From Asaia bogorensis (lineage in GTDB: Bacteria; Pseudomonadota; Alphaproteobacteria; Acetobacterales; Acetobacteraceae), in the NCBI GenBank assembly GCA_945897825.1, contig CAMDGX010000018.1, positions 1-59,904 on the forward strand: a stretch of 59,904 nt of DNA, given 5' to 3'. Of this stretch, positions 21,329-50,239 are shown piece after piece. Numbering within the stretch: the stretch's first letter is position 1; every line of letters starts with the position of its first letter. The notes under the pieces were generated by a model. The model did not search any database. It was not told where the DNA came from and saw only the letters and a list, made by a program, of their open reading frames with translations. The translations under genes were made by a program, and so were the position numbers.

Positions 21329-22114
21329 TTAGGCGCCGTGGCCGATGTAGTCTTTGCGCCCACCATCCACAGCCAGCACCTGGGCGGTGATGAAGCCGGC
21401 GTCGGGGGCGGCGAGGAAGGTGATGGCTCGGGCGATTTCCTCGGGTTCGCCGACGCGGCCGGTGATGGCGTTGCGGGCGAAGCTGTCGCGCATTTCGGTC
21501 CATTCGGCGTCGGATTTGTTGCCTTGGGTCATGTCGGAGCGGATGAGGCCGGGGGCGACGGCGTTGACCGTGATGTTGTGTTCGCCGAGTTCGAGGGCGA
21601 AGCGCTTGGTGAGGATGTTCACCTCGGCCTTGGTGGATGCGTAGAAGTGGTTGCCGGCGAAGCCGCAGGTGCCGAAGGAGGCGATGCTGGAGACGTTGAC
21701 GATGCGGCCGTAGCGGCGGGTTCGCATGCCGCCCACCACGGCGCGGATGGCGTGGATGGTTCCGTCAACGTTGACGGCGCGCAGGCGGGCGAAGCCTTCG
21801 GCGTTCCAGGTGTCGATGGTGGCGGCCCAGGCGATGCCGGCGTTGTTGACGAGGATGGTGATGGGGCCGAGCTCGGCTTCGGTTCTCGCGGCCATGGCGT
21901 GGACGGCCTGTTCGTCGGCGACGTCGGCCTGGAGGGTGATGGCGCGGCCGCCTTGGGCGCGGATTTCGGCGGCCAGCGCTTCGGCGGCGTCGGCGCGGGT
22001 GGCGTAGTTGATGGCCACGGCGGTGCCTTGGGCGGCCAGCGCGCGGGTGGTGGCGGCGCCGATGCCGCGGGCGCCGCCGGTGATGAGGGCGACCTGGTTG
22101 GTCCATTGGGTCAT
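21329..22114 (-). CDS. Short-chain dehydrogenase/reductase (FabG-like)
   Basis: A 261-residue NAD(P)-dependent oxidoreductase. Cofactor motif TGGARGIG (about 12-19), NNAG near 90, catalytic Ser in VSSIASFG, catalytic YxxxK in FYASTKAEV (about 157-165), and the PG motif in AVAPGLIRSDMT. The DGG near the C-terminus is typical of FabG-like members (VDGGRKDYIGHG). Substrate unknown. It is closely similar throughout to the SDR at 27225-28007, including the identical motif GNHFYASTKAEVN, so the two are paralogues. Confidence 0.9.
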   Translation of the reverse strand: MTQWTNQVALITGGARGIGAATTRALAAQGTAVAINYATRADAAEALAAEIRAQGGRAITLQADVADEQAVHAMAARTEAELGPITILVNNAGIAWAATIDTWNAEGFARLRAVNVDGTIHAIRAVVGGMRTRRYGRIVNVSSIASFGTCGFAGNHFYASTKAEVNILTKRFALELGEHNITVNAVAPGLIRSDMTQGNKSDAEWTEMRDSFARNAITGRVGEPEEIARAITFLAAPDAGFITAQVLAVDGGRKDYIGHGA

Positions 22115-27085: not shown

Positions 27086-27224
27086 GGAAGAATGTTCTTT
27101 TTTGAAAAAAAGAACCAAAAAAACTTTCCTCTCTTTGCACCGCGCCTGATCGGGAGAGCCGGGTGCAAATGGATAAAAAGTCTTTTTGCTTCTTTTTCTT
27201 CAGAAAAAGAAGATTCTTGCTTCC
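27086..27224. repeat. Composite palindromic intergenic element, copy A
   Basis: About 139 bp. Left AT-rich arm: GTTCTTTTTTGAAAAAAAGA forms an inverted repeat, then CAAAAAAACTTTCCTC. Centre: TTTGCACC (27134-27141) pairs with GGTGCAAA (27162-27169). Right arm: AAAAGTCTTTTTG, then CTTCTTTTTC-TTCA-GAAAAAGAAG. It ends at 27224, directly against the stop codon of the SDR gene (27225-27227). Copies B (43485-43615) and C (45995-46133) share both arms. Three-stem structure inferred from pairing. Confidence 0.85.
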
Positions 27225-28007
27225 CTAGTGCCCGATGTAATCCGTCCGCCCGCCATCGGCCGTCAGCACCTGGGCGGTGACGAAGCTGGCCTCGGGGGAG
27301 GCGAGGAAGGCGATGGCGGCGGCGATTTCCTCGGGTTCGCCGGCGCGGCCGAGGATGGTGAAGCCGGCGAAGGCTTTCTGCAGGGCGGCCCATTCCTCGG
27401 GGGTGCGGCCGCCTTGGGTCATGTCCGAGCGGGTGAGGCCGGGGGCGACGGCGTTGACCGTGATGGCGTGCTGGCCGAGTTCGTAGGCGAAGCGGCGGGT
27501 GAGCAGGTTCACCTCGGCCTTGGTCGAAGCGTAGAAGTGGTTGCCGACGAAGCCGGTGTTGCCGAAGGAGGCGACCGAGGAGATGTTGACGATGCGGCCG
27601 TAGCGGCGGGCCTTCATGCCGGCCATGACGGCGCGGATGCCGTGGATGACGCCGTCGACGTTCACGGCGCGCAGGCGGGCGAAACCTTGGGGTTCCCAGG
27701 ATTCGAGCGTGGCGGGCCAGGCGATGCCGGCGTTGTTGACCAGGATGGTGATGGGGCCGAGCTCGGCTTCGGTGCGGGCGGCCATGGCCTGGACGGCGGC
27801 TTCGTTCGCGACGTCGGCCTGGACGGTGATGGCCCGGCCGCCGGCGGCGGCGACGTCGGCGGCGAGTTCCTCGGCGGCGTCGGGGCGGCTGGTGTAGTTG
27901 ATCGCCACCGCGCAGCCATGGGCGGCGAGGCGGCGGACGGTGGCGCGGCCGATGCCGCGGGCGCCGCCGGTGACAAGGGCAACCTGGTTCGGCCAGTTCG
28001 CTGCCAT
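27225..28007 (-). CDS. Short-chain dehydrogenase/reductase (FabG-like), paralogue
   Basis: A 260-residue NAD(P)-dependent oxidoreductase: TGGARGIG (about 12-19), NNAG, catalytic Ser in NISSVASFG, YxxxK in FYASTKAEVN, AVAPGLTRSDMTQGG. Closely related to the SDR at 21329-22114; the two share length, most of the cofactor region and the C-terminal DGGRxDYIGH. AGGAGG precedes the ATG at 28007. The transcript runs into composite element A immediately after the stop codon. Substrate unknown. Confidence 0.9.
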   Translation of the reverse strand: MAANWPNQVALVTGGARGIGRATVRRLAAHGCAVAINYTSRPDAAEELAADVAAAGGRAITVQADVANEAAVQAMAARTEAELGPITILVNNAGIAWPATLESWEPQGFARLRAVNVDGVIHGIRAVMAGMKARRYGRIVNISSVASFGNTGFVGNHFYASTKAEVNLLTRRFAYELGQHAITVNAVAPGLTRSDMTQGGRTPEEWAALQKAFAGFTILGRAGEPEEIAAAIAFLASPEASFVTAQVLTADGGRTDYIGH

Positions 28008-32370: not shown

Positions 32371-32898
32371 CTACTCCCTGGAAAGATCAGGCGGCGCGGC
32401 TGCGCCGGGGGAAAGATCAGGCGGCGCGGCTGCGCCGGGGGAAGGGTCGGGCGGCGCGGTGGCGCCGGGTTCGTTCGTGGCCGTGTCGGGGTGGGCGCCG
32501 TTCTCCGCCTCATCGGCGGCGACGCGGGTGACTTCGGCGTGCTGCACGCGGCGGCGCACCGGGACGGCGACGTTCTCCTCGACCGTCTCGAGGCGCAGGT
32601 GCAGTTCCTCGCGCAGGCGCAGGCGGCGCTCGACGACGAGCACCTCCTCCACCACCGGGACCACCACGACGTCGCCCTCCTGGCGGACGGCGGGGACCTC
32701 GGATACGTCGCGGTCGATCGGCACGCGCTGCACCGAGGCGCGGCGGCCATGCAAGGTGGCGCGCAGCGTTTCCTCCACCTCCTCGGTCGTCAGGTGAATG
32801 CGCACCAGGCCGTGCGCGACCTCGCTCGTGTCGATGCGCACGCGCTCCTCCGCGAGTGGAATGCGGTCGGTTGGCTGGTCGTCCGGCGGAAGCGCCAC
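32371..32898 (-). CDS. Second YsnF/DUF2382 domain protein with repeat-encoded tail
   Basis: A 175-residue protein. The DUF2382 domain begins RIPLAEERVRIDTSEVAHG and contains VPIDRDVSEVPAVRQEGDVV and a charged strand region (RLRLREELHLRLETVEENV). The C-terminal tail is built from near-identical 10-residue units (SPGAAAPPDL). The GTG at 32898 is chosen because AAAGGA stands 7 nt before it; the longer frame upstream is Pro/Cys-rich and not convincing. It ends 5 nt before the ATG of the other DUF2382 gene, forming a tandem pair. Confidence 0.75.
   Translation of the reverse strand: MALPPDDQPTDRIPLAEERVRIDTSEVAHGLVRIHLTTEEVEETLRATLHGRRASVQRVPIDRDVSEVPAVRQEGDVVVVPVVEEVLVVERRLRLREELHLRLETVEENVAVPVRRRVQHAEVTRVAADEAENGAHPDTATNEPGATAPPDPSPGAAAPPDLSPGAAAPPDLSRE
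32381..32470. repeat. Three tandem 30-bp in-frame repeats
   Basis: Units 32381-32410 and 32411-32440 are identical (GAAAGATCAGGCGGCGCGGC followed by TGCGCCGGGG); 32441-32470 is a diverged third unit. They encode 10-residue SPGAAAPPDL-like units in the C-terminal tail of the DUF2382 protein, so copy-number change would keep the frame. Confidence 0.95.
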
Positions 32899-35965: not shown

Positions 35966-36076
35966 GCAGGGCTTCGCCCTGCACCCACCAAAGGCCGACG
36001 GCCTTTGGAAACCCATTCATGAGAATGGATCAGAGGTTCAGGGGCTCGGCTCCTGGCGGGTCTGGGCGGAGCCCAG
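35966..36076. repeat. Cluster of five short hairpins between convergent genes
   Basis: Successive inverted repeats: GCAGGGC/GCCCTGC (35966-35982), CCAAAGGCC/GGCCTTTGG (35988-36008), CCATTC/GAATGG (36013-36028), CAGGGGC/GCTCCTG (36039-36055), CTGGGC/GCCCAG (36062-36076). The last two match the double hairpin at 48557-48595 in reverse orientation. Probable terminators or REP-like repeat. Confidence 0.75.
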
Positions 36077-36108
36077 CCTTGCGTGCCGTTGCGCCGTAGC
36101 CCGCTGAT

Positions 36109-43484: not shown

Positions 43485-43615
43485 GGAAGAATGTTCTTTT
43501 TTGGAAAAAAGAAACAAAAAACTTTCCTCCATGGCGCCGCGGCCGAAAGGCTCAGCGAAGCGCCAAGTGGAAAAGTCTTTTTGCTTCTTTTTCTTCAGAA
43601 AAAGAAGATTCTTGG
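43485..43615. repeat. Composite palindromic intergenic element, copy B
   Basis: Same orientation as copy A. Left arm GTTCTTTTTTGGAAAAAAGA, then CAAAAAACTTTCCTCC. Centre TGGCGC (43532-43537) pairs with GCGCCA (43560-43565), different in sequence from copies A and C. Right arm AAAAGTCTTTTTG then CTTCTTTTTC-TTCA-GAAAAAGAAG. It ends at 43615, directly against the folD stop codon (43616-43618). Confidence 0.85.
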
Positions 43616-44476
43616 TTACCGCGCCCGCCGCGCCAGCGCCGCCGTGAGCGTGTTCTCCAGCAGGCAGGCGATCGTCATGGGGCCGACGCCGCCGGGCACC
43701 GGGGTGATCGCGCCGGCGTGGGCGGCGACCTCGTTGTAGGCGACGTCTCCCACCAGCGTGCCGGCGGCGGTGCGGTTGATGCCGACATCGATCACCACCG
43801 CCTCGTGCGCCACCCAGTCGCCGCGCACCATCTCCGGGCGGCCGACTGCGGCGATCAGCACTTCCGCACGGCGGCATTCGGCGGCGAGGTCGCGGGTGCG
43901 GGAGTGGGCCAGCGTCACGGTCGCGTCGGCGCCGGTCAGCAGGGCGGCCATCGGGCGGCCGACCAGGACCGAGCGGCCGAGCACCAGGGCGCGCACGCCG
44001 GCCAGCTTCACCTCGGCGGCGGCCAGCAGCTTCATCACGCCGAGCGGGGTGCAGGGCACCAGGCCGGGGCGGCCGGCGGCGAGCAGGCCGGCGCTGGTCG
44101 GGGTGAGGCCGTCGACATCCTTGGCCGGGTCGATCGCGTCCAGCACCGCTTCGGTTGCGATGTGGGCCGGCAGGGGGAGCTGGACCAGGATGCCGTCCAC
44201 CTCCGGGTCGTCGTTCAGGTTGCGCACGACGGCAAGCAGCTCGGCCTGGGGGGTCGCGGCGGGCAGGCGGATGGTGCGCGCGGCGATGCCCATGGCGGTG
44301 GCCGCGCGGTCCTTGCTGCGGACATAGACCTGGCTGGCGGGATCGTCGCCCACCAGCACCACGGCCAGGCCGGGGCGGAACGGCAGGGCGGCGACGCGGG
44401 CGGCGGTTTCAGCGCGCAGGGCGGCGGCGATGGCTTTTCCGTCGATGATACGGGCCGTGGGGGATTGCGCGGTCAC
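43616..44476 (-). CDS. folD: Bifunctional methylenetetrahydrofolate dehydrogenase/cyclohydrolase
   Basis: A 286-residue cytoplasmic enzyme interconverting 5,10-methylene- and 10-formyl-tetrahydrofolate. The folate-binding Lys appears in [12 protein letters not shown], the core motif is [10 protein letters not shown], then KDVDGLTP, the NADP-binding segment [16 protein letters not shown], and the C-terminal [23 protein letters not shown] start overlapping the stop of the DUF167 gene (GTGA), so the yggT-DUF167-folD set is translationally coupled. Composite element B abuts its stop codon. Confidence 0.96.
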
Positions 44477-45233: not shown

Positions 45234-45309
<76 letters not shown>

Positions 45310-45994: not shown

Positions 45995-46133
45995 GGAAGG
46001 AAGATTCTTCTTTTTCTGAAGAAAAAGAAGCAAAAAGACTTTTTATCAATTTGCGCCGCGTTTGACCGGTCGGGCGCGGCGCAAAGTGTTGAAAGTTTTT
46101 TTGTTCTTTTTTTCAAAAAAGAACGTGCTTGCC
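45995..46133. repeat. Composite palindromic intergenic element, copy C (inverted)
   Basis: Reverse orientation of copies A and B. Left: CTTCTTTTTC-TGAA-GAAAAAGAAG, then CAAAAAGACTTTT. Centre: an 11-bp perfect stem TTTGCGCCGCG (46050-46060) / CGCGGCGCAAA (46075-46085). Right: AAAGTTTTTTTG then GTTCTTTTTTTC-AAAAAAGAAC. It ends at 46133, directly against the stop codon of the M20 gene (46134-46136). Confidence 0.87.
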
Positions 46134-47303
46134 TTACTTCGCCAGCTCCTGCTCGACGAGCGTGGCCCAGAAGCTGGCCCCGATCGGCAGGATGGCGTCG
46201 TTGAAATCGTATTTCGGGTGGTGGACCTGGGTGGTGAACCTGTCGCCATCGGCCTGGCCGATGCGCACGAAGCAGCCGGGGACGGCCTGGGCCATGTAGC
46301 TGAAATCCTCGCCGCCCATGGTCGGTGGGCGCTGGCGGATCACCTTGCCGTCGCCGAGCAATTTCGTGCCGGCGCGGGCGGCGCGGTCGGCGGCATCTTC
46401 GTTGTTCACCACCGGTGGGTAACCCCGTCGGTAGTCGATGACGGCGGTGGCGCCGTGGGCGGCGGCGGTGGCGTTGACGATCTGGGGGATCAGGCGCTCG
46501 ACCTCGTCCTGCACCTCGGGGCGCAGGGTGCGCACGGTGCCGGAGAGCATGGCGGTGTCGGGAATGACGTTGTGGGCGCTGCCGGCGTGGAACTGGGTGA
46601 CCGAGACGACGGCGCTGGCCAGCGGATCGGTACGGCGGGCGACGATGGATTGCAGGGCGAGGACGACGTGGCTGCCGACGACGACGGGGTCGATCGTCAT
46701 GTGCGGGCGCGCCGCGTGGCCGCCGCGGCCGGAGAGCGTGATGATGAAGCGATCCGATGCGGCCGACACGCTGCCGGCGACCGCCGTGATGGTGCCGACG
46801 GGCAGCGCCGTGTCGTTATGGGCGCCATAGACGCGCTCGCAGGGGAAGCGCTGGAACAGGCCTTCCTCGACCATGATGCGCCCGCCGCCGGCGTTCTCCT
46901 CGGCGGGCTGGAAGATGAAATGCACGGTGCCGTCGAAGTTGCGGGTTTCGGCGAGGTACTTGGCCGCGCCGAGCAGCATGGTGGTGTGGCCGTCGTGGCC
47001 GCAGGCGTGCATCCGGCCGGGGGTGGTGGATTTGTGCGCGAACTCGTTCTCCTCGGTCATCGGCAGGCAGTCCATGTCGGCGCGGATGCCGATGGAGCGG
47101 GACGAGGTGCCGACCTTCAGCGTGCCGACCAGGCCGGTGCCGGCCAGGCCGCGCGTCACCTCGATGCCCCAGGAGGCGAGCTTGTCGGCGACGACCTGGC
47201 TGGTGCGGTGTTCCTCCAGCCCCAGCTCGGGGTGGGCATGGAGGTCGCGGCGCCATTCGGTGAGGGTGTCGGCGTCGGCGGCGATGCGGTTGATGACGGG
47301 CAT
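46134..47303 (-). CDS. M20 family amidohydrolase
   Basis: A 389-residue metal-dependent hydrolase (amidohydrolase/carboxypeptidase clan). Motifs: RRDLHAHPELGLEEHRTS (about 18-35), ADMDCLPMTE with the metal Asp, HACGHDGHTTMLLGAAKYLA with the CGHDGH signature, then FQPAEENAGGGRIMVEEG with catalytic Glu and metal ligand, and the dimerisation-domain SGRGGHAARPH. Substrates of close relatives are N-acyl amino acids or hippurate. AGGAG-like purines precede the ATG at 47303. Divergent from frmA; element C abuts its stop codon. Confidence 0.92.
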   Translation of the reverse strand: MPVINRIAADADTLTEWRRDLHAHPELGLEEHRTSQVVADKLASWGIEVTRGLAGTGLVGTLKVGTSSRSIGIRADMDCLPMTEENEFAHKSTTPGRMHACGHDGHTTMLLGAAKYLAETRNFDGTVHFIFQPAEENAGGGRIMVEEGLFQRFPCERVYGAHNDTALPVGTITAVAGSVSAASDRFIITLSGRGGHAARPHMTIDPVVVGSHVVLALQSIVARRTDPLASAVVSVTQFHAGSAHNVIPDTAMLSGTVRTLRPEVQDEVERLIPQIVNATAAAHGATAVIDYRRGYPPVVNNEDAADRAARAGTKLLGDGKVIRQRPPTMGGEDFSYMAQAVPGCFVRIGQADGDRFTTQVHHPKYDFNDAILPIGASFWATLVEQELAK

Positions 47304-48535: not shown

Positions 48536-50239
48536 CTACCAAGACCGCACCCAAGGCTGGGCTCCGCCCAGACCCGCCAGGGGCCGAGCCCCTGGCCCCT
48601 CCTTTACCGAACTCTGCATCAAACCGAGAACCGCGGCGGCTGTTGTGGCTTCCTCGGGGGTTTTGGTGACGAGGCCAGCCGCCTGGAGGAGGTTTAGGAA
48701 GTTGCCGAGCAGTTCGATGCCGGGCGGGTCGTCTAGGTCGGTGGGCGGGGTGATGATGACCTTGTTGATGAGCGCGCGCGCTGCCTCGCGGGCTTCGGTT
48801 TGGTCAGGACCGGTCAGGGCGGCGCTGAGGTGGGTCAGCTTGGCGCGGTAGATGGCGACCATGTCGGTCGGGATTGTCGGCACTTGCGGGTGCGGCGTTG
48901 CCAGGGAGGCTGCCAGTTCGGCGCGGCGCGCTTGCAGGTCGCTCAGGCGGCGGGTGATGTCGGGGGCGCGGATGCCCTCGGCGAGGGCGTCGATGAGGTT
49001 GGCGATACGGCGGTCGGTGGTGTCGAGTTCGCGCTGGAGGTGGTCGGGATTGCCGGACGCCGCGGTGATCTGCTCGTGCCACGCCTCGGAAAAGGCGGCG
49101 GCGAAGCTGGCGAGCAGGTCGGGTTGCATCAGTTGGGCGCGCAAGGCGGCGACGACCTGGGCTTCGACGCGGGCATAACGCACCGAGGTTCGGTTGGAGC
49201 AGCCGTGGTCGCGGGCCAGCCGGCAGCTCAGGTAGTCCTTGCCGACGCGATGCAGGGTGCGCTCGCACACGCCACAGACGATCTTGCCGGTGAGCAGGTG
49301 GCGCGGGCGGCGGCACTCCCAGAAGCGGCCGAGCCGGGTGGGTCGGGTCGCAATGGTCGCGCGGGGTGCCGCCTCGGCGATCAGGCGGTCCTGGACGCGC
49401 TGCCAGGTCGGGGTGTCGAGGATCGCCAGGTGGGGCACCTCGCGGACGACCAGGTCTTCCGCCGGGTTCTCCTTGCGGACGCGGTAGCCGCCGGCAGGGT
49501 CCTTGAGGTTGTGGCGCCGGTTCCAAACGAGACGACCGACATAGAGCGCGTTGCGCAGGATGCCCTCGCCGCGCGTGGCCCTTCCGCGGATCGTATTGTC
49601 GGTCCAGACGCCGCCGTTGGGGCTGGGGATGCTGTCGGCATTCAGCGCCCGGGCGATTTGGCGCGGGGAGTGCCCGGCCGCGTAGTCGGTGAAGATGCGG
49701 CGGACGATGGCGGCCTGCTCCGGGTCGATTTCGCGCAGGCCGCGGTCGGGCTCGCCGTCGGGACCGAGGCGGCGGACGATGCGATAGCCGTAGGGCACGG
49801 TGCCGGTGCCGCGCCCCTGGAGGATGCGGCCCTCGAGGCCGCGGCGGGTCTTGGCGGCGAGGTCCTTGAGGTAGAGGGCGCCCATGGTGCCCTTGAGGCC
49901 GATATGGAGCTCGGAGATCTCGCCCTCGGTCAGGGTGACGACGCGCACGCCGGCGAAGACGGTCAGTTTGTGGAAGGCGGCGATGTGCTCCATGTCGCGA
50001 CTGATGCGATCGAGGCTTTCTGTCAGCACGATGTCGATGCCGCCCTGGCGCAGGCGGGCGAGCATGGCCTGGTAGCCCGGACGCAGGGTGGTGGCGCCGG
50101 AGAGGGCGGCATCGGTGTAGGTCTCGGCAACGGTCCAGCCCTCGCGATCCGCGCGCTGCTGGCACAGGCGCAACTGGTCCTCAATCGAGGCCTCGCGCTG
50201 GGCGTCGGAGGAGTAGCGGGCGTAGAGAGCGATTCGCAT
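48536..50239 (-). CDS. Large serine recombinase (resolvase/invertase N-terminal domain)
   Basis: A 567-residue site-specific recombinase. N-terminal catalytic domain: RIALYARYSSDAQREASIED with the nucleophile Ser near residue 10-11, LTESLDRISRDMEHIAAFHK and the conserved Arg residues. Then the recombinase domain, a zinc-ribbon with CGVCERTLHRVGK...C...GC, and a coiled-coil stretch (LQRELDTTDRRIANLIDALA). The last about 20 codons (GARPLAGLGGAQPWVRSW) are encoded by the GC-rich double-hairpin repeat at 48557-48595, so the original end was probably lost. The ATG at 50239 is chosen over a GTG at 50248. Confidence 0.92.
   Translation of the reverse strand: MRIALYARYSSDAQREASIEDQLRLCQQRADREGWTVAETYTDAALSGATTLRPGYQAMLARLRQGGIDIVLTESLDRISRDMEHIAAFHKLTVFAGVRVVTLTEGEISELHIGLKGTMGALYLKDLAAKTRRGLEGRILQGRGTGTVPYGYRIVRRLGPDGEPDRGLREIDPEQAAIVRRIFTDYAAGHSPRQIARALNADSIPSPNGGVWTDNTIRGRATRGEGILRNALYVGRLVWNRRHNLKDPAGGYRVRKENPAEDLVVREVPHLAILDTPTWQRVQDRLIAEAAPRATIATRPTRLGRFWECRRPRHLLTGKIVCGVCERTLHRVGKDYLSCRLARDHGCSNRTSVRYARVEAQVVAALRAQLMQPDLLASFAAAFSEAWHEQITAASGNPDHLQRELDTTDRRIANLIDALAEGIRAPDITRRLSDLQARRAELAASLATPHPQVPTIPTDMVAIYRAKLTHLSAALTGPDQTEAREAARALINKVIITPPTDLDDPPGIELLGNFLNLLQAAGLVTKTPEEATTAAAVLGLMQSSVKEGPGARPLAGLGGAQPWVRSW
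48557..48595. repeat. GC-rich double hairpin at the left edge of the recombinase island
   Basis: CTGGGC-tcc-GCCCAG (48557-48571) followed by CCAGGGGC-cga-GCCCCTGG (48577-48595). This is nearly the reverse complement of the pair at 36039-36076. It could terminate frmA, and it also encodes the last codons of the recombinase. Confidence 0.75.

Follow-up and report, generated by a model that had tools for sequence, protein, structure and literature searches.

Three copies of a composite palindrome, each next to the stop codon of a minus-strand gene, raised the question of what this element is and what it does at gene ends. The copies lie in a stretch of 59,904 nt from an Asaia bogorensis assembly (GCA_945897825.1, contig CAMDGX010000018.1), which is called the window here. 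Our analysis points, with reasonable but not high confidence, to a REPIN/MITE-like non-coding mobile element, confined to the Acetobacteraceae in our sampling, which now commonly serves gene 3′ ends as a two-way terminator.

Window copies, anatomy and fold

The sequence bore out the positions of the three copies (Table 1), and in 3/3 the element ends on the base directly adjoining the minus-strand gene's stop codon. The genes named in the preliminary description as SDR, folD and M20 hydrolase gave Pfam matches to short-chain dehydrogenase, tetrahydrofolate dehydrogenase/cyclohydrolase (FolD) and M20 peptidase, respectively. The FolD protein showed 86–88% identity to proteins of uncultured Acetobacteraceae/Rhodospirillales MAGs and 73% to that of Neoroseomonas alba. 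Copy 1 lies between the stop of the SDR gene and the next minus-strand gene. Copies 1 and 2 are oriented alike, and copy 3 is opposite. The arms had been described as AT-rich and shared by the three copies. They are of two different types, called C-type and G-type here, which are combined one to one in almost all copies. The repeat finder paired the arms of the window copies at 83–98%, and unlike arms were 68% alike in one ungapped comparison.

Table 1. Element copies, arm hairpins and adjoining stop codons in the window
Feature	Position	Strand	Evidence
Copy 1	27086..27224	− (C-arm to G-arm order)	Sequence; covariance model, 161.5 bits
Copy 1, C-type arm hairpin	27189..27212	−	Arm-string match
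Copy 1, G-type arm hairpin	27094..27115	−	Arm-string match
Copy 1, variable central segment	27127..27177 (bounds approximate)	−	Sequence and folding
TAG stop of short-chain dehydrogenase gene (27225–28007)	27225..27227	−	Abuts C-arm end tract of copy 1; gene call, Pfam
Copy 2	43485..43615	−	Covariance model, 126.2 bits; at stop of folD gene (43616–44476)
Copy 2, C-type arm hairpin	43584..43607	−	Arm-string match
Copy 2, G-type arm hairpin, imperfect	43493..43515	−	Sequence
TAA stop of folD gene	43616..43618	−	Gene call
Copy 3	45995..46133	+	Covariance model, 152.8 bits; at stop of M20 peptidase gene (46134–47303)
Copy 3, C-type arm hairpin	46007..46030	+	Arm-string match
Copy 3, G-type arm hairpin	46103..46124	+	Arm-string match
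TAA stop of M20 peptidase gene	46134..46136	−	Gene call

Rfam at gathering cut-offs gave no match to the element in the window, where the sole match was a tRNA; a tRNA gene lies at 45234–45306 on the + strand. The window also carries two short-chain dehydrogenase genes (21338–21637 and 27228–27527) that are 80% alike in DNA over 300 nt and are probably paralogues, and a 30-nt unit in three head-to-tail repeats (32380–32469).

A typical copy is approximately 140 bp long and consists of two unlike A/T-rich hairpins flanking a variable palindrome. In the aligned copies, a purine tract (AAGN) precedes the C-type hairpin CTTCTTTTTC-TGAA-GAAAAAGAAG (10-bp stem, TGAA loop); CAAAAAGACTT, the centre and AAGTTTTTTGG come next, and the G-type hairpin and then an NCTT tract complete the order. 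An A-run follows the C-type hairpin. The central palindrome has a free sequence closed by CTTTT/AAAAG, followed by a T-run; in copy 1, the centre with its flanking A- and T-runs forms a stem plus T-run whichever strand is read. In 82 copies from the sample described below, the central segment was 21–72 nt long (mean 48). No mismatch to either of two consensus types (loop-closing C-G or G-C) was found in 71/82 C-arms, and none to the consensus in 65/82 G-arms. A few copies carry the C-type arm at both ends. The folding z-score of the centre averaged −2.9, with 48/82 below −2 and 34/82 not, and the central fold was weak in 24/82 copies.

Copy 1 folded on either strand into one long hairpin, which RNAalifold also preferred for 29 copies of the host genome. 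Covariation was examined in an alignment of 57 hand-picked copies (15 from the host, 22 congeneric and 20 from elsewhere), with deviant copies kept. Compensatory double changes occurred in 6/19 pairs of the arm hairpins, and 0/500 shuffles reached six. The long hairpin had compensatory changes in 0/27 outer pairs, the five inner pairs of the RNAalifold structure being left out of this count, and several substitutions break its pairing. Therefore, the three-stem layout appears better supported as the conserved structure. The long hairpin, though favoured by energy, was rejected in that role and may also form. Both a long-hairpin and a clover fold are described for REPINs, whose spacers show compensatory changes (PMC3116915).

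Copy number, placement and stop codons

The host draft genome searched comprises 4.93 Mb in 208 contigs. The element had been described as present in three copies; the arm-string counts indicate about 300 in the genome, or approximately one per 16 kb. With up to two mismatches, the C-arm string matched 294 times forward and 312 times reverse, and the G-arm string 284 and 295 times. As an arm and its reverse complement are nearly the same string, the counts stand for about 300 sites rather than 600. Reversed-pattern controls of both arm strings gave 0 matches, and the copies go far beyond what chance would give. BLASTN with the element found at least 56 matches in at least 40 places. A covariance model built from 29 host copies found at least 150 places, the weakest of the best 150 scoring 121 bits; the window copy at 43485 was absent from these best 150. 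The case considered in the preliminary description, that only three copies exist with none in relatives, was contradicted by the covariance-model search and by the family-wide survey.

Placement was studied in 12 contigs (739 kb, 69.7% GC, window included) holding 82 copies. These contigs were picked for many copies among the best 150 covariance-model places, so 82 copies per 739 kb overstates the density of the genome. The 82 copies came from 168 cmsearch rows, with both strands of one place merged and a copy split over L147/L148 counted once. The weak places L163:5127–5174 and L163:12991–13151 were left out. A comparison of lists gave four single-arm sites besides the 82 composites. L163:5127–5174 is a chimeric single hairpin, half C-type and half G-type, with both end tracts flanking it, as if two arms had recombined and the centre had been lost. 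The genes of the sample were called with a home-made codon-usage finder, not a standard annotator.

The midpoint of a copy lay within a called gene in 0/82 cases. By gap, 42 copies were tandem, 33 convergent and 7 divergent, the last (7/82) without any gene end. Copies occupied 33/99 convergent, 42/453 tandem and 7/101 divergent gaps; the convergent excess over the rest was significant (p = 1.8 × 10−9) and the depletion of divergent gaps was not (p = 0.07). The stop was within 16 nt of the hairpin edge at 100/108 gene 3′ ends facing a copy, and the start at 4/56 gene starts facing a copy. Both stops abutted the element in 29/33 convergent cases. The residual spacer there had a median of 17 nt; in the 66 convergent gaps that lack the element, the median was 58.5 nt. 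In convergent pairs the element seems to have replaced the spacer, not split it. One copy separates the ATPase and permease genes of an ABC transporter (Pfam; L144:7177–8842). The two genes overlap or nearly do so in congeners without this copy.

The stop codon had been described as lying next to the element. It does adjoin the element, but the junctions in the 739 kb showed that it usually reads as a T plus the element's own AAGN purine tract, the phase giving TAA, TAG or TGA. The stops beside elements (n = 104) were TAA 46, TAG 36 and TGA 22, and those of all called genes ending in a stop (n = 655) were TGA 414, TAG 156 and TAA 85. TAA was enriched at elements (p = 3 × 10−19); with TAA making up 46 of the element-side stops, 46/85 TAA stops of the sample sit at an element. 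Three genes extend to a TGA within the G-arm loop. The element bears on gene annotation, because some genes have their last codons in its tracts.

Tc1/mariner or IS630-like elements have TA as their target. A TA insertion target was considered because the element-side stops were mostly TAA or TAG, and it was rejected: the inspected ends that do not face gene stops lack TA there (by eye). GTAG REPs have been reported to supply TAG stops (PMC3733652).

Occurrence and site turnover in relatives

All of the congeners searched (8/8) gave at least 80 matches each. In the Acetobacteraceae sample, in which the best 10 candidates per genome were scored, the element occurred in 93/299 genomes and 37/102 genera. 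In a class-wide sample it occurred in 2/385 genomes, namely the host genome and one of the same family. Phage sequences gave no element match. The plasmid matches came from two records, both of Pseudoroseomonas cervicalis; in an annotated one, position 1496 is the end of a CDS and the element match starts at 1501. The arms were nearly letter-identical across genera, fully so in many copies, and the centres were unrelated.

The placement in relatives was checked with a cruder gene test in 30 of 39 listed congeneric copies and in 17 copies from other genera; the stop tallies of both sets come without background stop usage for comparison. Of the stops found beside the congeneric copies, 40/45 were within 16 nt (TAA 23, TGA 12, TAG 10). 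The copies from other genera had 20/24 stops within 16 nt (TAA 12, TAG 7, TGA 5), and 1/17 had no stop within 120 nt.

Copy positions were compared among relatives, as had been proposed, and orthologous sites in congeners were found filled, empty or reversed. At the M20 peptidase site (copy 3), four congeners carried a copy oriented as in the window, and in one of them the centre was a wholly different perfect palindrome. The folD site was empty in congener G005. The SDR site was empty in G005 and held a reverse-orientation copy in G004. The site C37:7912 was filled in the host, G005 and G008 and empty in G003, G004, G006 and G007; C37:10837 was empty in 5/5 relatives compared. At C37:16201, four relatives were empty, G003 had a truncated G-arm copy and G005 an offset reverse copy. 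Sites C37:2336, 17748 and 19064 were left out of the filled/empty comparison. Four further orthologous pairs kept their orientation, with arms 97–100% and centres 50–68% identical; four pairs with L051, in which the boundary was mis-parsed, were left out of these identities. Several conserved sites keep orientation across species at 72–93% flank identity, and some element sites are old.

Other repeats were seen in the same genomes. Where the window has the A/T element at the end of the SDR gene, G007 carries a GC-rich repeat, and G003 has one close by. In the window, a GC-rich interspersed repeat occurs as inverted copies that are 94% alike (36039–36089 and 48544–48594). A third dispersed repeat of approximately 200–225 bp, with many copies in the host genome and congeners, was found at L144:9471–9695 (contig C37).

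A miniature mobile element at gene ends was one of three readings offered in the preliminary description, alongside a bidirectional terminator and an mRNA 3′-end protector. This reading is supported by the approximately 300 copies, the filled and empty sites and the opposite orientations at one gene end. Filled, empty and reversed sites are the pattern of a mobile element, and we infer transposition from it. The filled/empty comparisons gave no unambiguous target-site duplication, because the AAGN tracts blur the element ends; TGA stands on both sides of C37:7912, for which selection is a possible cause.

Function, origin and known systems

In the 739 kb, 276/320 A/T runs of at least 6 nt lay within elements, which make up 1.5% of this DNA. 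The element has the layout of an intrinsic terminator, a stem and then a T-run, 3′ of genes and on either strand. The anatomy, the 33/99 convergent gaps and the A/T runs support the bidirectional terminator suggested earlier, which stays a prediction from sequence. Given a stem and U-run on both strands and the bias towards convergent gaps and stops, the most economical function of the element would be bidirectional intrinsic termination. Several points speak against termination. A generic consensus terminator scan, which demands a T-tract 0–2 nt past the stem and picks up some arm hairpins, found no excess over shuffles (9 vs. 8.6, 7 vs. 7.9 and 3 vs. 5.0). Further points are the 24/82 weak centres, the seven divergent copies and the copy between the ABC transporter genes. 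The long hairpin preferred in folding and the 34/82 centres with z-scores not below −2 also count against the overall reading.

In the proposed mechanism, RNA polymerase arriving from either side would first make the RNA of the central stem and next a U-tract, which is UUUUUU on one strand and UCUUUUU on the opposite one. A second termination site may come from the outer hairpins with their U-runs, which may also cap the 3′ end of the transcript. An incoming frame would obtain its stop from the purine tract (T+AA, T+AG or T+GA), with a further TGA in reserve in the inward-read arm loops. A mobilising enzyme likely recognises the two unlike, conserved arms as left and right ends, with the centre as passenger.

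A RAYT (Y1) transposase was sought as such an enzyme. PF01797 gave 0 matches in the host genome, with controls positive in 5/14, and tblastn with four such proteins of relatives gave no match in the host sequence examined. The absence of a RAYT from the host genome, searched in these two ways, is probable rather than certain, NF047646 being the more sensitive model. In the family, 36/299 genomes had a PF01797 match, 33 of them above the cut-off. Seventeen PF01797-bearing genomes were among the 93 element-bearing ones, counted by eye and assuming that both surveys drew the same 299. Among 20 fetched PF01797 loci of relatives, 2 held an arm, at a distance of about 1 kb or more from the gene, and 18/20 showed none; at least 4/20 do not look like RAYTs. 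The GC-rich repeat of the window was also checked as a RAYT partner, and its motif matched in 1/20 of the loci. The PF01797 matches in three congeners reached only 28–29 bits, and the one checked scored 120 bits with NF047646. L317, L322 and L323, from relatives of the host, encode REP-associated tyrosine transposases (3/3 checked pass the NF047646 cut-off). Membership of the element in a REP/RAYT system was not supported (no PF01797 match in the host genome, arms in 2/20 loci).

The foremost alternative is a plain selfish REPIN/MITE, mobile through single-strand transposition and without any part in termination, its position at gene ends marking the survivors of selection. Two conserved inverted palindromic ends, a free centre, a high copy number, filled/empty polymorphism, and copies in divergent gaps and inside an operon all fit it. 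REPINs share the layout and the compensatory spacer changes (PMC3116915), and GTAG REPs can also supply stops (PMC3733652). We regard this alternative as rather unlikely, as survival alone does not obviously explain two-sided stops within 16 nt (29/33 convergent pairs) or a stem plus T-run on both strands.

A non-mobile terminator module, inherited vertically, that recombination between copies has spread and selection has maintained, would account for the several sites conserved with orientation at 72–93% flank identity. It would also fit arms of 97–100% against centres of 50–68% identity in the four cleanly parsed pairs. The clean empty sites make such a module improbable, as do congeners in which a gene end holds its copy in reverse or at an offset.

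The first hairpin, mostly 3–16 nt past the stop, would lie in the ribosome footprint, where it might stall or insulate the terminating ribosome. The distribution of stop-to-hairpin distances agrees with this translation role, and there are published parallels: REPs within 15 nt of stops have been proposed to affect the terminating ribosome (PMC12306157), and ribosome termination structures have been described (PMC7518266). It leaves the central stem with T-runs on both strands and the two-sided design unexplained, and as the whole explanation it is very improbable. An effect of the first hairpin on the ribosome remains, by analogy, a rival or an added layer to termination. A DNA-uptake-type signal doubling as a terminator, as in Neisseria and Pasteurellaceae, where uptake sequences are known in terminators and paired ones are enriched between convergent genes (PMC1852404), is the least credible, because the element is composite, approximately 140 bp long and present about once per 16 kb, whereas uptake signals are about 9–11 nt long and generally number at least 1,000 per genome.

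If the element is indeed a mobile repeat acting as a two-way terminator, a mobile repeat would have been taken over as a general 3′-end signal in a large bacterial family. This would explain the source of most A/T-run terminators in a GC-rich genome, and why TAA clusters at one repeat despite TGA as the usual stop. REP-like elements could then be tested as selfish survivors versus useful gene-end parts, and ready-made two-way terminators for acetic acid bacteria and their relatives would be possible. We speculate further, as a doubtful extension, on a transposing terminator directed to or fixed almost only at stops, which replaces the native stop and spacer and provides most intrinsic termination in GC-rich members of the family. 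The terminating ribosome could switch it between three short hairpins and one long hairpin, coupling the end of translation to the end of transcription.

No published description of the element, and no mention of its arm strings, was found in the open-access papers searched. Like the uptake-sequence terminators of Neisseria and Pasteurellaceae, it is a dispersed repeat that would form terminators between convergent genes, but it is much longer, composite and several times rarer (PMC1852404). It resembles a bidirectional intrinsic (Rho-independent) terminator in its A-run, stem and T-run on both strands and in favouring convergent gaps. It differs in being a dispersed repeat with fixed arms, two extra hairpins and stop-codon tracts, and its termination is predicted.

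Like MITEs (non-autonomous DNA transposons), the element is short and present in high copy at polymorphic sites, has terminal inverted repeats (the arms are similar, not identical) and has no ORF, the last point resting on its length of approximately 140 bp. Unlike in MITEs, the convergent spacer is seemingly replaced, not split; a target-site duplication could not be read at the ends, which the AAGN tracts blur. The preliminary statement that no known layout corresponds to the three stems was too strong, because two inverted palindromes with a foldable variable spacer are the REPIN layout (PMC3116915). The element shares with REPINs/BIMEs its extragenic position, hundreds of copies, inverted conserved palindromic repeats and a foldable variable spacer (PMC3116915, PMC2817692, PMC3733652). 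Common to both are also the alternative long-hairpin and clover folds and ends that can supply a stop; single arms are rare here. In contrast to REPINs/BIMEs, its ends are AAGN tracts (by eye) and not the GTAG or CGTC tags named for REPs (PMC3733652). Its arms are of two types, A/T-rich in a 70% GC genome and near-identical across genera, and no Y1 transposase was found in the host genome with PF01797. The REPIN layout is thus shared, but the tag and the RAYT are not, and we therefore class the element as REPIN/MITE-like with two unlike ends and a predicted two-way terminator action.
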